From assembly GCF_021025955.1 (NCBI RefSeq), contig NZ_JAJNCL010000005.1, positions 310,001 through 374,000 of the forward strand: a stretch of DNA of 64,000 nt, written 5' to 3'. Positions 58,487-63,704 of this stretch are shown one piece after another. Below the pieces are notes generated by a model. The model was given only the letters and a program-made list of their open reading frames with translations. It ran no database searches and was not told the origin of the DNA. The first letter of the stretch is position 1. Each line of letters starts with the position of its first letter. The stretch comes from Rhodococcus qingshengii (lineage in GTDB: Bacteria > Actinomycetota > Actinomycetes > Mycobacteriales > Mycobacteriaceae). Both the position numbers and the translations under genes were made by a program.

Positions 58487-59419
58487 ATGAGTCTTCACAT
58501 GCCTCGATTTTTCCCGGTCGGGGACGGACACGAATCCCGTCTCCCTCGGCGCGCCACTGCTGTGTTGGCGGCGCTGCCGGCTGCATTGCTCCTCGCGACT
58601 TCGGGTGCGCTGCTCGCACCCGGTATCGCCTCGGCCGCCCCGGGCGACGACATCACTGACCAGTGCCTGGAGATGTCCCAGAACGGTGGTCCCTGGGTCA
58701 AGCCGCCAGCCTTCGACCCCAGCGGGACGGATTACATCCCGATCCCCGGTGGCGAGGGCACACAATTGGCCTTCGATGTCCGCAATGTCTGTGACCTTCC
58801 CGCCACACTCACACTCTTCAGTGAGGGCTGGTCCGTTTCGGGCGGCGGCACTGCGACGGTGCGGGGCAAAATCGGCAGCCAGGGCGGCCAGCAGTTCGTG
58901 ATCGGACCCGATGCGAATTCCGCGACTCGGATCGAGCTGGTGAAGACGCCTCTCGCGCAAAACGTCAACGTGATGGTCGGTTTCATGATCGGCATCCCGG
59001 CCGGCGAAGTCCTGCAGGGATACGAGATCAACCCCGGCTGGGGTCTGGTCCTGGTGGAGGGCGAGCCTGCTGTGGTAGCCCCCAGTGCTCCGACCGACTT
59101 GTCTCTGGGCGCCGCCGAGGTCGAGGTGGGCACACCCGTCAAGGTCTCTGGCAAGGCAGAGCCGAACAGCACCGTCACGGTCACCGGAGGGGGTGCCACC
59201 TGCACCGCCACCGCGGATACGAGCGGGAACTTCAGCTGCAACCTGACTATCACCACACCCGGCAGTCATCCGATCACCGCCACTGCGACAAATGCGGGTG
59301 GGACCAGCCCCGCCTCCGCAGGAGTCACGGTCAAGGTCACGGCGAAAACCACCGATCCGGGTGGCAGCAGCAGCGGTTCGCTCGGAAGCCTGGACCTGTT
59401 CGGAAGCCTCGGCGGATAA
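58487..59419 (+). CDS. Secreted protein with a bacterial Ig-like domain
   Basis: 310 aa from ATG 58487 (ATG 58499 is also possible). A long Sec signal peptide (basic start, core LAALPAALLLATSGALLAPG) ends at ASAAPGDD. Residues about 50-190 form a beta-rich domain with a Cys pair (DQCLEM, RNVCDL). A bacterial Ig-like domain follows (about 195-285: APTDLSLGAAEVEVGTPVKVSGKAEPNSTVTVTG). The C-terminus is Gly/Ser-rich (GGSSSGSLGSLDLFGSLGG). A probable surface or matrix component encoded just before the SipW operon. Confidence 0.75.
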   Translation: MSLHMPRFFPVGDGHESRLPRRATAVLAALPAALLLATSGALLAPGIASAAPGDDITDQCLEMSQNGGPWVKPPAFDPSGTDYIPIPGGEGTQLAFDVRNVCDLPATLTLFSEGWSVSGGGTATVRGKIGSQGGQQFVIGPDANSATRIELVKTPLAQNVNVMVGFMIGIPAGEVLQGYEINPGWGLVLVEGEPAVVAPSAPTDLSLGAAEVEVGTPVKVSGKAEPNSTVTVTGGGATCTATADTSGNFSCNLTITTPGSHPITATATNAGGTSPASAGVTVKVTAKTTDPGGSSSGSLGSLDLFGSLGG

Positions 59420-59450
59420 CCACTCCGGCCCGACCGGCCACTTAGACCTC

Positions 59451-59489
59451 GCGATGCGCGGGGCGATCTCGACCATCTCCGCGCATCGC
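59451..59489 (+). terminator. Hairpin between Ig-like protein and SipW operon
   Basis: Perfect 11-bp arms (GCGATGCGCGG / CCGCGCATCGC) with a 17-nt loop, 32 bp after the stop. There is no U tract, so it may be a terminator or a partial attenuator. Confidence 0.55.
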
Positions 59490-59637
59490 CAGCCTTCTCG
59501 GCCACCGAATTCAATTCGGCGGCTTGATTTCCCATGCCCCTTCCTGGGGCTGTTTCACCGGAGTGCACATCCGCACGGCCCGGGCTCAACCAAGCGCGTC
59601 GGATGTCCCGCCGCGAACTGCACAGGAGGAATACCAG

Positions 59638-60135
59638 ATGAACAAGACCACAAAGGGTGCGATCGCCGCAGGTGCGGCTGCTGTTCTGCTCGCAGGCGGC
59701 GCCGGCACCATGGCGGCATGGAATGCATCGACCGGCACTGGCGGAAGCCAAGCCGTCACCGCAGGCTCGATGACGATCAGCGAAGCGGCGGGCTCGGGTG
59801 TGTGGAAGCTCGGCGGGAGTGCATTCAACCCGACGACCGACAAGATCGTCCCCGGTGACGTCCTCACCTACACCGCTACGTACAACTACAACCTCGTCGG
59901 CACCAACCTCAAGGCCACGCTCACACCGACCGTCGGCGGTATTTCCGGGGCTCTCGCGAGCAAGCTGGAGGTCGCGACTGCCGGTGGCCAGAACGCAAGC
60001 GTCACCGCGGGCACCGGCACGCGGGATATCACCACCACGATCACGTTCAAGCCGGACACCGCCAACACGGACGGTGCGGGCGAGGCAGCCACGCTGTCCG
60101 GAGCCTCGGTCACCCTCGAGCAGACGCTCAACTAA
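59638..60135 (+). CDS. Alternate-signal exported protein A (RER_14450/TasA-like family)
   Basis: 165 aa from ATG 59638, with AGGAGG upstream. The signal region (basic MNKTTK, core AIAAGAAAVLLAGGAGTMAAW) then NASTGTGGSQAVTAGSMTIS is the alternate-type signal cleaved by SipW-like peptidases, with a Trp just after the cut region. The mature part is a small beta-rich protein (VLTYTATYNYNLVGTNLKATLTPTVGG), rich in Thr and Gly and without cysteines. TasA/camelysin-type proteins assemble into fibres in Bacillus; fibre formation here is inferred. Confidence 0.85.
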   Translation: MNKTTKGAIAAGAAAVLLAGGAGTMAAWNASTGTGGSQAVTAGSMTISEAAGSGVWKLGGSAFNPTTDKIVPGDVLTYTATYNYNLVGTNLKATLTPTVGGISGALASKLEVATAGGQNASVTAGTGTRDITTTITFKPDTANTDGAGEAATLSGASVTLEQTLN

Positions 60136-60150
60136 GCCAAAGAAGGTCAC

Positions 60151-60693
60151 GTGAAGACCCAGTACAAATGGGCGATCGCAGCGTCGTCGGTTCTGCTCAT
60201 CGGGTTCGTCTCGGTGCAGCAGACCGGCGCGCTGTGGCGCGATACCGCAGAATCGACCGGCGGCACTATCCAGGCGGGCATGCTCGATATCTCTGCCGGC
60301 GGTGAAGGGGTCAAGCAGTTCAACCTCGATGGGTTCAAGTTGGACAACAAGGGCCCGGGCGACAGCATTCAGATGCCCCTGCCGGTGATCAACTCCGGCA
60401 ACGTGCAGATGAACTACGTGCTTTCCGATGTTGTACTCAACGGCGCCACCCCACCGCCGCTGAGCCTGCGCGTGGCCAAGGTAGCCAACGAGGCGGCCTG
60501 CACCGCGACTGGTGACGTGGGCACCGAGCTTTACAACGGTGCCATGGACGGCGCAGCCTTTTCCGAGCAGTTGGTTCCGGCCGGGCAGATGCAGGTGCTG
60601 TGCCTGCGGGCCACGCTGGGCCAGGGCGCGGCAGCGAGCCAACAGTCCAACGCGACGTTCACGTTCGACGCAAGCTCAGTGAGCCAGTCATGA
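60151..60693 (+). CDS. Alternate-signal exported protein B (TasA-like)
   Basis: 180 aa from GTG 60151, 15 bp after protein A. Signal region KWAIAASSVLLIGFVSVQQTGALWRDTAESTGGTIQAG repeats the pattern of small residue, Trp, acidic residue and then an AG motif seen in protein A. The mature part includes two cysteines (EAACTAT, VLCLRAT). Its TGA overlaps the signal peptidase start. Substrate for the adjacent peptidase is the natural interpretation. Confidence 0.82.
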   Translation: MKTQYKWAIAASSVLLIGFVSVQQTGALWRDTAESTGGTIQAGMLDISAGGEGVKQFNLDGFKLDNKGPGDSIQMPLPVINSGNVQMNYVLSDVVLNGATPPPLSLRVAKVANEAACTATGDVGTELYNGAMDGAAFSEQLVPAGQMQVLCLRATLGQGAAASQQSNATFTFDASSVSQS

Positions 60694-61430
60694 CCGTCAC
60701 CGCGAGAAGCCGGCGCGCGGGCGAACGTGCCGAGTATGGACCCCGGCACAGCGCACACGTGGAAACATCTGAGCAGCAACATGATCCCGAACAAGACGCA
60801 GGCGAGAAGACCACTCTCTGGTGGTGGACTCGCACCATCGTCTCGTGGGTGCTGTTGCTGTTGATGATCGGCGTTCTCGCGGTGATGGTCGTTATCCCTC
60901 GACTTACCGACTCCACTGCGTTCACGGTTCTCACCGGCTCGATGGAACCGACCATGCCCCCTGGCACGCTCATCGTGGTCAAGCCGACCCCCAACGAGGA
61001 TCTGACCACCGGGGACGTGATCACGTTCCAGCCCGTCTCCGGCGATCCAGCGGTGGTCACCCACCGCATCGAGGGCATCTACTACACCGGGGAAGGGGAG
61101 CGTCGCATCCACACTCGCGGCGACAACAACCCCGTCGCCGACTCGTGGTCGCTGGTGCCCGAGCAGATCCGTGGTCGTGTCATCTACTCGGTGCCGTATC
61201 TGGGCCGGGTGAACTCGGTGATCAACGGGCAATCGCGTTCGATTCTCACCACAGGCGTGGCTGCCGGCCTGGCTGTATATGCGGTGTGGATGGTCGTCAG
61301 CGGCATCCGCGACAAGCGGGGCAAGGCCGATGACGACGAAAGTGGCACCGACCCGACTCTTTCCGGCCCTGAACTCGGCGCGCCGGTATTGCCCGCCGAT
61401 CCATCGGCACCAAACTCCGAATCGAAATAG
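60690..61430 (+). CDS. sipW: Signal peptidase I, SipW/ER type, copy 1
   Basis: 246 aa from ATG 60690. A roughly 45-residue charged cytoplasmic N-terminus precedes one membrane helix (TIVSWVLLLLMIGVLAVMVVIP). Catalytic Ser84 is in TGSMEPTMPPG, and His125 in VTHRIEG takes the place of the bacterial general-base Lys, the hallmark of ER/archaeal/SipW peptidases. The GDNN box follows. A second helix (LTTGVAAGLAVYAVWMVVSG) and an acidic tail (DDDESG) close the protein. It should mature proteins A, B and C. Confidence 0.9.
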   Translation: MTVTARSRRAGERAEYGPRHSAHVETSEQQHDPEQDAGEKTTLWWWTRTIVSWVLLLLMIGVLAVMVVIPRLTDSTAFTVLTGSMEPTMPPGTLIVVKPTPNEDLTTGDVITFQPVSGDPAVVTHRIEGIYYTGEGERRIHTRGDNNPVADSWSLVPEQIRGRVIYSVPYLGRVNSVINGQSRSILTTGVAAGLAVYAVWMVVSGIRDKRGKADDDESGTDPTLSGPELGAPVLPADPSAPNSESK

Positions 61431-61439
61431 GACAGCAGA

Positions 61440-62045
61440 ATGTCTACAGAACAGAAATCGGGCGGCGGCGCGCGTCTCGGGGCGCGGATGCGAAGCCGTC
61501 TGGGCGAGACCGGTTGGATACGTACCCGGGCCGTGCTTTCACTCGGTATGGTCCTGGGCCTCGGGGCGGTCGGCACGATGGCGGCGTGGTCTGACAGCGC
61601 TACCGCGACCACCGGCATGTTCAGCACTTCGTCGGTCCAGCTGAAAGTCGACAACCAGCGGCCCGCACACCAATTCACCGAACTCAAGCGCAACAGCATG
61701 CTGCCAGGCCAGAGTGAGGCCGGGGCATTGACGGTTCAGAACACCGGAACGGCCAACTTCCAGTGGGCAGTATCGGCAACGGCCACTGGCTCGTCCGCGC
61801 TGATCGGGAAGCTCAAGGTTTCCCTACATCAGACCGGTGCCAACGACGGCAGTACTTGTTCAGGACCGATCATCGGGACGCAGCAAGCGTTCTCCGGCAA
61901 CCCGACACTCGTCTCCGGCAGATCACTCGCTGCCGGTGTTTCGGAGCAGGTGTGCATCAAGGTGACCGTCGATTCGACCGCGGGTCAGACGGAGCGGTTC
62001 AAGATCGCCGATCTGGGCTTCAACTTCACCGCAACGGGGCAGTGA
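61440..62045 (+). CDS. Alternate-signal exported protein C (TasA-like)
   Basis: 201 aa from ATG 61440, nine bases after the peptidase stop. A longer basic N-terminus (about 30 residues) precedes core AVLSLGMVLGLGAVGTMAAW and SDSATATTGMFSTSS, the same alternate signal as in A. The mature region is beta-rich with two cysteines (STCSGP, EQVCIKV). Its stop lies 35 bp before the preferred start of the second peptidase. Confidence 0.83.
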   Translation: MSTEQKSGGGARLGARMRSRLGETGWIRTRAVLSLGMVLGLGAVGTMAAWSDSATATTGMFSTSSVQLKVDNQRPAHQFTELKRNSMLPGQSEAGALTVQNTGTANFQWAVSATATGSSALIGKLKVSLHQTGANDGSTCSGPIIGTQQAFSGNPTLVSGRSLAAGVSEQVCIKVTVDSTAGQTERFKIADLGFNFTATGQ

Positions 62046-62080
62046 TCATCGAGATGGACAGCACTGATGAGGAGGTGACC

Positions 62081-62653
62081 GTGGGACGAAGTCGTGGCAA
62101 GGAAATTGCCTTGAATGTGGCTGCGGTCGCCGGGCTCATCTGCCTCATCGCCACTTTCGCATCCCTGATATTCGGGATCAAGCCGCTGGTTTTTCGCTCG
62201 GGTTCGATGGAGCCTGCAATTTCTACCGGTGCGCTGGCGCTGGCGAAGGCCGTGCCTGCAACCGAACTCGCTGTCGGCGACGTGATCAGCGTCGACAACG
62301 ACCAAGGTGTGCGCATTACCCACCGCGTGGTCGAACTCGAACCGGCGGGAGCGGACACCGTGCTCGCCACGCTCAAGGGCGATGCCAACAATGTGGCTGA
62401 TCGGCTGCCCTACACCATCACCGAGGCCGACCGCGTGTTCACCAGTGTCGGCGGGCTCGGCTACGTCGTTGCTTGGCTTTCCAGTCCGCTCGCAACTTTC
62501 CTCGGCGGCGGATTTGTAGGCGCGGTGCTGGTCATCGCATTTGGACGAACTAAAGACCGGCGTCTGGAGAATGCCCGCGCCGCCACTACAAATGACGCCC
62601 GCGTCGATGCTGACGAAACCTGCGGGGAGCTTCAGGAGGCTCATAATGATTGA
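62081..62653 (+). CDS. Signal peptidase I, SipW/ER type, copy 2
   Basis: 190 aa from GTG 62081, chosen because AGGAGGT lies six bases upstream; GTG 62042 and ATG 62054 are in-frame alternatives without such a site. One N-terminal helix (ALNVAAVAGLICLIATFASLIFG), then Ser42 in RSGSMEP and His81 in ITHRVVE as the Ser-His dyad, then a GDANNVAD box. A second helix near LSSPLATFLGGGFVGAVLVIAFG. It differs strongly from copy 1, so this is not a recent duplication. It overlaps the next gene by 8 bp. Confidence 0.87.
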   Translation: MGRSRGKEIALNVAAVAGLICLIATFASLIFGIKPLVFRSGSMEPAISTGALALAKAVPATELAVGDVISVDNDQGVRITHRVVELEPAGADTVLATLKGDANNVADRLPYTITEADRVFTSVGGLGYVVAWLSSPLATFLGGGFVGAVLVIAFGRTKDRRLENARAATTNDARVDADETCGELQEAHND

Positions 62654-63704
62654 AATGCGTCGGGCTAGCACCCGCATGAAGTCGCTGCGGTCGTTGATCG
62701 CTATCGGCGGCGCTGCCGCAATGGCTTTCGGCCTGGCTCAGACCACCGGGACGATGGCCAATCCCACTGACGCGGTCAATTCGACTGGTGCGCAGGTGGC
62801 GACGGGCAACTTCTATCCGACGCCGTTGACCGCAAGTATCGGATGCTCGACGTCGGGTTCTGTCACGAGTCAACGTGGGAACCCATATTGGAGCGCTGTG
62901 CCCGGGGCAACGGGTTACAAGGTCGAACTGATGAACAGGAGTAACAACACGGTGAAGGACACGAAGACCTTCACCTCTACGCAACTTCAGTGGTCGAGCG
63001 TATCTGACTCGGATCGCACTGGACTGTACATCAGGGTCTACACCATCAATGGCCCGATGACCTCGTCCGGATATACAACCGGCGCCGGCATGTCTTTCAA
63101 AGACTGGGTGAGTGGTCGCACTGCGTGCGAGGGTAGTTCGAGCACAAGCAAGCCAAACCAGGTCTGGGAAAACACCAACACCTGGGATCCGACTACCCCG
63201 GCGCCGAACGGGTCGAATCCTCTGAGCCGGATGCAGGCCGAAGCGATGGTGCCGAACGAGCCAGATGCGTTGGAGGCGAACACCACCCAAGCTCCGTCCA
63301 CGAGCGAGACCGTCAAGTCGACAACGTCTACCGAGCCGACCAGCACAACCGAGACCACGACCACGACGGCACCGAGCACGACAACTCCGGCACCGACCAC
63401 CCCGGAAACCACGTCGCCGGAGACCACTCCCTCGGCTGATCCGAAGCCGGTTCTCACGGACACGGTCGAGAGTGGCGGCCTCACCGGCGGCTGGACTGCG
63501 GGTGGTAACAAGGTGGCGGTCGTCGATGCCGACGGCAACGAACTCGCCAGTGGCCGTGTCGAATCTGGCTCCACTCTGCACTGGTACAACGGCCAGCTGT
63601 GGATCGTCGGGGCAACCGAGGTTTTTCGCATCATGGAGTCGCCGCAGGACGGCACGTGGAAGTTCTACAAGGACAGCGGTCAGAACATGCCTGACTTCGG
63701 GTAG
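62646..63704 (+). CDS. Large exported surface protein with fibronectin-like domain and Ser/Thr/Pro stalk
   Basis: 352 aa from ATG 62646, with AGGAGG upstream. The signal-like region (MKSLRSLIAIGGAAAMAFGLAQTTGTMAN then ATGNF) resembles the alternate signal of proteins A-C, but lacks the Trp. Residues about 75-150 look like a fibronectin-type domain (NPYWSAVPGATGYKVELMNRSNN). A Thr/Pro/Glu-rich stalk (about 215-265) follows, a likely O-mannosylation site. The C-terminal domain (about 270-352) is Trp-rich (GGLTGGWTAGGNKVAVVDADG, LHWYNGQLWIV). No LPXTG or membrane anchor is seen. Last gene of the operon. Confidence 0.75.
   Translation: MIEMRRASTRMKSLRSLIAIGGAAAMAFGLAQTTGTMANPTDAVNSTGAQVATGNFYPTPLTASIGCSTSGSVTSQRGNPYWSAVPGATGYKVELMNRSNNTVKDTKTFTSTQLQWSSVSDSDRTGLYIRVYTINGPMTSSGYTTGAGMSFKDWVSGRTACEGSSSTSKPNQVWENTNTWDPTTPAPNGSNPLSRMQAEAMVPNEPDALEANTTQAPSTSETVKSTTSTEPTSTTETTTTTAPSTTTPAPTTPETTSPETTPSADPKPVLTDTVESGGLTGGWTAGGNKVAVVDADGNELASGRVESGSTLHWYNGQLWIVGATEVFRIMESPQDGTWKFYKDSGQNMPDFG

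Follow-up and report, generated by a model that had tools for sequence, protein, structure and literature searches.

A SipW-type operon with two signal peptidases in Rhodococcus qingshengii, predicted to encode a donor-strand surface filament

A 64-kb stretch of the genome of Rhodococcus qingshengii (the window, in whose positions all gene coordinates below are given unless a locus is named) contains a tightly packed operon for three small exported proteins, A, B and C, two signal peptidases, Sip1 and Sip2, and a stalked protein, D. This operon probably encodes a surface filament that depends on SipW-type peptidases and is held together by donor strands, and the system is not confined to Rhodococcus and its relatives. 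The filaments would probably be thin, located on the cell surface and built of small TasA-like subunits. An earlier note on this DNA had described an immunoglobulin-like (Ig-like) protein followed by a tight operon with two serine-histidine (Ser-His) peptidases, and this gene set proved exact to the base. The genes are as follows (aa, amino acids; arrows mark predicted cuts):

58487-59419, + strand: Ig-like secreted protein, 310 aa; ordinary Sec signal (ASA↓AP), N-domain, one Big_6 bacterial Ig domain and a C-terminal tail, GSSSGSLGSLDLFGSLGG
59638-60135, + strand: protein A, 165 aa; exported protein with alternate signal (GTMA↓AWN), predicted filament subunit; TIGR04089, E 5.3e-42
60151-60693, + strand: protein B, 180 aa; TasA-like subunit (QTGA↓LWRD) with the conserved cysteine (Cys) pair C117/C151
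60690-61430, + strand: Sip1, 246 aa; Ser-His signal peptidase with two membrane spans, belonging with the A-B module; TIGR02228, E 1e-24
61440-62045, + strand: protein C, 201 aa; TasA/camelysin-like subunit (GTMA↓AWSD) with the conserved Cys pair C140/C172; TIGR04088, 31.5 bits
62042-62653, + strand: Sip2, 203 aa; second Ser-His signal peptidase, belonging with the C-D module; TIGR02228, E 9.7e-17
62646-63704, + strand: protein D, 352 aa; SipW-like signal (GTMA↓NPTD), beta-type domain, threonine/proline (Thr/Pro)-rich stalk and conserved C-terminal domain

All seven genes are on the + strand, and the operon A-B-Sip1-C-Sip2-D occupies positions 59638-63704. Genes overlap by 4 base pairs (bp) at B/Sip1 and at C/Sip2 and by 8 bp at Sip2/D, the gaps from A to B and from Sip1 to C are 15 and 9 bp long, and a gap of 218 bp sets the Ig-like gene apart from A. 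The limits of the operon were drawn from this spacing, because neither consensus promoters nor + strand terminators above chance were found within it.

Both peptidases match TIGR02228 (Sip1 with 87.2 bits and Sip2 with 61.3 bits, at a cut-off of 51.85) and both have a Ser-His dyad in place of serine-lysine (Ser-Lys), as in signal peptidases I of the SipW/endoplasmic-reticulum type; the catalytic motifs are TGSMEP...VVTHRI in Sip1 and SGSMEP...RITHRV in Sip2. The Bacillus SipW equivalog NF046067, which has a cut-off of 190 bits, gives 75.8 bits for Sip1 and 54.7 bits for Sip2. Judged from their sequences, the two proteins are the same kind of enzyme as Bacillus SipW, outside its equivalog. The LepB of the same genome is encoded separately (L010:3906-4673, - strand) and has the usual Ser-Lys. 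Where a TasA-type operon has a single dedicated SipW, this one has two peptidases, which belong to different clades. A midpoint-rooted tree of 123 of these enzymes, without an outgroup and so unpolarised as to the direction of the split, has Sip1 and Sip2 on the two sides of one branch (support 100/99). SMxP is present in 55 of 57 and 65 of 66 peptidases of the two clades, and [TSM]HR in all of them. The possibility that the two peptidases are chance SipW-like open reading frames was rejected in view of the conserved set, the catalytic residues and the two clades.

That the operon itself is not a chance arrangement follows from its recurrence, mostly in the same order, in many other genomes. 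A scan of named genomes with an alignment of C yielded 52 loci, in which the presence of C is given by construction and that of the other genes is not. They represent at least ten actinobacterial genera and lie in Rhodococcus, Rhodococcoides, Prescottella, Tomitella, Williamsia, Speluncibacter, Arthrobacter, Psychromicrobium, Aeromicrobium, a Nocardioidaceae genome and Kitasatospora. Both peptidases are found in 51 of the 52 loci, and A, B, Sip1, C and Sip2 together in 49; the same set is present in nearly all loci of a first collection, which had been fetched through Sip1 or A. Conservation in relatives, which the earlier note had proposed to look for, holds in Rhodococcus and in many other actinobacteria. 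The special link to a mycolate-bearing envelope that it had also drawn is not supported, and a system specific to mycolate-bearing bacteria was rejected, since the set occurs in Arthrobacter, Psychromicrobium, Aeromicrobium, the Nocardioidaceae genome and Kitasatospora, all of which lack mycolic acids. Within the genus, a Sip1 query matched in 15 of 28 genomes, three of them weakly and with Sip2-like proteins only. TIGR04089 exceeds its cut-off in 7 of 399 genomes of the order and is therefore rare, and C-like proteins were retrieved from 22 of 396 genomes across the phylum.

The commonest order in relatives is A-B-Sip1-C-Sip2::D, where the double colon denotes an in-frame fusion. Six loci have the order A-C-Sip2::D-A-B-Sip1, and in two loci the modules lie on opposite strands. 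A Sip2 module without Sip1 occurs in L009, L077, L078 and L088-L090, and the reverse was not seen among the loci fetched.

The signals of A, B and C are of the SipW type and carry tryptophan (Trp) at the second position after the predicted cut (P2'), the aromatic residue expected in a TasA-type operon. In the first collection P2' Trp was present in 38 of 38 A proteins with such a signal, 25 of 25 B and nearly all C proteins; in the named set Trp or phenylalanine (Phe) was present in 63 of 69 A, 50 of 50 B and 57 of 57 C, with Phe in a few members, and the remaining six A proteins are lipoprotein forms. The signals are about twice as conserved as the cores (0.69 versus 0.32 in A, 0.70 versus 0.34 in C). 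Family models divide the proteins: TIGR04089 (cut-off 60 bits) accepts A with 143.9 bits and leaves B (23 bits) and C (14.4 bits) below its threshold, while the SipW-cognate signal model TIGR04088 (cut-off 19 bits) accepts C and gives A 14.7 bits. A P2' aromatic hinders LepB, and SipW cuts TasA, which has Phe at this position (PMC10269814); the donor strand of TasA comprises residues 28-38, including F29 (PMC9674648). By analogy, we infer that a single aromatic residue might serve both ends, the insertion of the strand and the requirement for a special peptidase. A dedicated enzyme would be needed because the aromatic that anchors the strand stands at P2', where LepB cuts poorly, which would be a simple reason for the existence of such peptidases.

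The relationship to TasA is clearest for C. A Foldseek search of the PDB with its AlphaFold model returned as its top three matches the TasA fibre (8aur, E 2.7e-5), an archaeal bundling pilus (7ueg, E 8.6e-4) and an archaeal thread (7pnb, E 6.9e-3). VIA-align superimposed the model on 8aur with a Z score of 9.1 over 132 residues (root mean square deviation 3.8), the next row being about 1 lower, so that by model comparison C has the TasA-type jelly-roll/beta-sandwich fold. PF12389 (TasA/camelysin) matches 18 of 29 relatives of C, at best with an E value of 3.9e-8. B is homologous to the C family (hhalign probability 99.4%, E 4.7e-22), and the C profile retrieves B in its own genome at E 1.6e-14. 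Thus C, and through C also B, is a TasA-superfamily protein by its fold and by the sequences of its relatives, not by the Pfam score of the window protein. A is related to B and C over the signal and the early mature part only; its model is a beta-sandwich with weak matches to donor-strand pilins and to TasA, and A is probably a related beta-sandwich protein. Sequence searches of A and B against solved filament proteins gave chance-like matches only (antibodies, fatty-acid-binding proteins). Both models leave the mature N-terminus unpaired and assign it low confidence, as would be expected of a strand awaiting its partner; low confidence by itself is no proof of this. The earlier proposal of a TasA-type fibre processed by SipW-like peptidases is well supported for C and B by fold, profile and P2' aromatic and more weakly for A, and structure prediction, which had been suggested as a check, gave a TasA-like model for C and one with weak matches to TasA for A.

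The relationship of D to C is limited to the signal and about 20 residues after it (hhalign E 2.8e-5). It has no family match in Pfam or NCBIfam and no LPXTG motif was seen in it, and orthologues as well as fused homologues are present in relatives. In 42 of the 52 named loci Sip2 is fused in frame to D, and only Sip2 is so fused. Three of four fused proteins examined have a third hydrophobic span before D, which would place D outside the membrane. The D proteins of many relatives have F, Y or W as the second residue after the predicted cut. A further variation concerns A: in Prescottella, in loci of the R. erythropolis type and in some others, an additional A-like protein is a lipoprotein, in which a lipobox and a Thr/Pro- or glycine-rich spacer replace profile positions 1-31 and the A core is intact. 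The form at L068:9084-9698 matches TIGR04089 positions 32-179 with 76.7 bits, and others are found at L105:10167-10955, L102:10140-11006, L096:7131-7784 and elsewhere. The missing segment corresponds to the signal and approximately the first ten mature residues, about as many as make up the donor strand of TasA. Several of these proteins have a GSLGS motif after the lipid-anchored Cys.

From these genes and models we infer cleavage, a division of substrates between the peptidases, filament assembly and roles for D and lipoprotein A along the following lines. A, B and C would be exported by Sec via their special signal, and a Ser-His peptidase would cut them just before the N-terminal segment with its aromatic second residue. 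The freed subunits could then form a chain in which the N-terminal strand of one fills the groove of the next. The label "amyloid" is not indicated: the solved structure shows the TasA fibre to be a polymer joined by donor strands, which argues against demanding cross-beta, dye-binding fibres (PMC9674648). D is best regarded as a TapA-like starter, or a tip or stalk protein, that would be able to donate a strand and unable to accept one, since its resemblance to the subunits ends with the signal and strand region; TapA, with a complete fold of its own, initiates TasA through donation of its N-terminus (PMC10151520). In the fusions D would stand behind the third membrane span, often with a SipW-type site, and each peptidase molecule would arrive together with one molecule of substrate, since Sip2 and D are a single polypeptide in most relatives. 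A lipid-anchored A core devoid of the donor segment could be an acceptor-only base in some relatives. A staged assembly across the actinobacteria can be put forward only tentatively: Sip1 would free the shaft subunits A and B, Sip2 would free the starter D beside itself (as one chain in most species), and the lipid-anchored A core that lacks a donor strand would be the base in some of them.

Several observations weigh against a SipW-dependent filament. Both models are of moderate confidence and come from shallow alignments (mean predicted local distance difference test score 69.6 for A, and 64.8 for C, from 29 sequences, with most of its core at about 80-87). None of the window proteins A, B and C matches PF12389 by its own sequence. 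The matches of the A model are weak (best Foldseek E value 0.023; 8aur at E 0.093 and VIA Z 5.2). The signal of the window D, GTMA, is SipW-like, but it is followed by NPTD, as against AWNA, LWRD and AWSD in A, B and C; the P2' aromatic is lacking, and SipW processing of this D is therefore less sure. Among the fused proteins, a clear aromatic SipW-type site in the region of the span before D is present in ~24 of 43, the pattern count of 28 having included L112, L113, L115 and L116, which were not taken as real sites. The window locus, finally, is without a lipoprotein A. An unlikely alternative is that A, B and C use SipW peptidases and never polymerise; they would then be exported in soluble form or bound to the wall, acting for instance as camelysin-like enzymes or binding carbohydrates. 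PF12389 bears a metallo-endopeptidase name, and the best VIA match of the A model is a xylan-binding domain (Z 7.0). It should be noted, however, that each of the three proteins ranked highest for C by Foldseek is a filament subunit, that no conserved metal-ligand set is apparent in the alignments of A, B and C, and that the aromatic-led mature N-terminus is unpaired in the models. The presence of several TasA-like paralogues alongside a stalked protein is easier to reconcile with a polymer that has minor components than with an enzyme.

It is also rather unlikely that Sip1 and Sip2 are interchangeable, the second being a redundancy within a duplicated tasA-sipW pair. Both are Ser-His enzymes of one family, and duplication is frequent in this genome, since it also has a paralogous copy and a C-Sip2-D-like cluster. 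Nevertheless, the two separate, fully supported clades are retained together in nearly every named locus, the fusion to D involves Sip2 only, of the two modules just that of Sip2 is met on its own among the loci fetched, and each module moves as a whole where the order is permuted or the genes diverge. Within the filament reading, which is considered probable as a whole, the two peptidases mark two linked groups of genes, A-B-Sip1 and C-Sip2-D. A possible, if doubtful, variant is that D stays with Sip2 and is displayed outside by the membrane anchor of the peptidase, as a receptor or an assembly platform. The fusion is the majority state, ~19 of the 43 fused proteins are without a clear aromatic site, and the D of the window has no aromatic either. 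Release of D would be favoured by the many fusions that retain a strong internal site behind the hydrophobic span, for example GTAA↓AFTDT, and by the D of the window, which has a gene and a signal to itself.

TasA-type donor-strand filaments are already known from Bacillus and, in related forms, from archaea. In tapA-sipW-tasA of Bacillus subtilis and sipW-calY1-bc_1280-calY2 of B. cereus, a dedicated Ser-His peptidase likewise adjoins its substrates, an aromatic P2' residue follows a signal ending in alanine, the subunits have the TasA/camelysin fold found here in C, and a minor partner (TapA there, D here) shares just the N-terminal strand region. In contrast to these systems, the present one is actinobacterial, has a second peptidase, combines three types of subunit and gives D a Thr/Pro-rich stalk; fusion of Sip2 to D and lipoprotein forms of A are further differences, seen in its relatives. 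Protein A clearly belongs to TIGR04089 (exp_by_SipW_III, alternate-type signal peptide protein), the name of which already ties it to SipW. This model covers A only: it includes neither B and D nor the second peptidase, and it does not extend to the fusions, the lipoprotein variants or the TasA-type fold found in the partners of A. No paper on this family, and none on actinobacterial SipW/TasA systems, was found in the open-access literature searched. The archaeal bundling pili (AbpA, 7ueg; AbpX) and threads (Saci_0406, 7pnb), which rank second and third among the structures that Foldseek matched to C, are also donor-strand filaments, and AbpX was a weak match in a sequence profile search of the PDB (E 0.31). 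They differ in being archaeal, and we know of no two-peptidase operon or peptidase-substrate fusion in archaeal systems. The A and C models also resemble the incomplete-Ig pilins of chaperone-usher pili (FimA, CfaB, PapG pilin), which share the donor-strand principle; unlike in those systems, no chaperone, usher or outer-membrane pathway was seen here, and no sequence relation was found.

If the filament reading is true, Rhodococcus, Prescottella equi, Arthrobacter and others would gain a defined, conserved surface filament of several subunits. It could bear on the adhesive appendages that have been reported on Rhodococcus cells and are unexplained (PMC9748138), a link that is speculation. The fusions and lipoprotein variants would be natural experiments on the start and the anchoring of the filament.

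The Sip2::D fusions, the lipoprotein A variants and a second paralogous copy in the genome are findings additional to the earlier note. The second cluster, on contig 48 (L007), encodes A, B, Sip1, C, Sip2::D and another A; its Sip2::D is one open reading frame of 529 aa (L007:9426-11015) with the internal SipW-type site GGTQA↓AFTG. A third cluster, on contig 3 (L009:4355-7649), has the order C-C-Sip2-D, with a Sip2-type peptidase and a stalked D-like protein of 470 aa, and clusters of this type are kept in the close relatives L078, L088 and L089. In L069 a tandem expansion extends over 18 kb: there are several genes for A, B and C, Sip2::D occurs twice, and the A-B-C block is repeated almost identically. 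A solitary A core with an ordinary Sec signal (GSAAP) is encoded on contig 45 of the same genome as the window (L085:5545-6294, - strand), and no SipW-type peptidase was found on that contig.

On inspection of their translations, the genes upstream (a transporter, an amidohydrolase) and downstream (acyl-CoA dehydrogenases and others) look unrelated, and the A-B-Sip1-C-Sip2-D system therefore appears self-contained. The Ig-like protein, which the earlier note had placed upstream of the operon, is indeed there, with a Pfam Big_6 match at E 1.8e-7; it has an ordinary Sec signal, and its gene precedes A only in the minority sub-type of loci to which the window belongs (L059, L061-L065, L092-L095). 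Its N-domain has no detectable relation to A, B, C or D (probabilities under 4%), and the protein is an accessory of this sub-type. Its C-terminal end (59360-59419) consists of GSLGS-type repeats, GSSSGSLGSLDLFGSLGG, which are conserved in the orthologues of L059 and L061-L065 and resemble the stretch after the lipobox in lipoprotein A forms.

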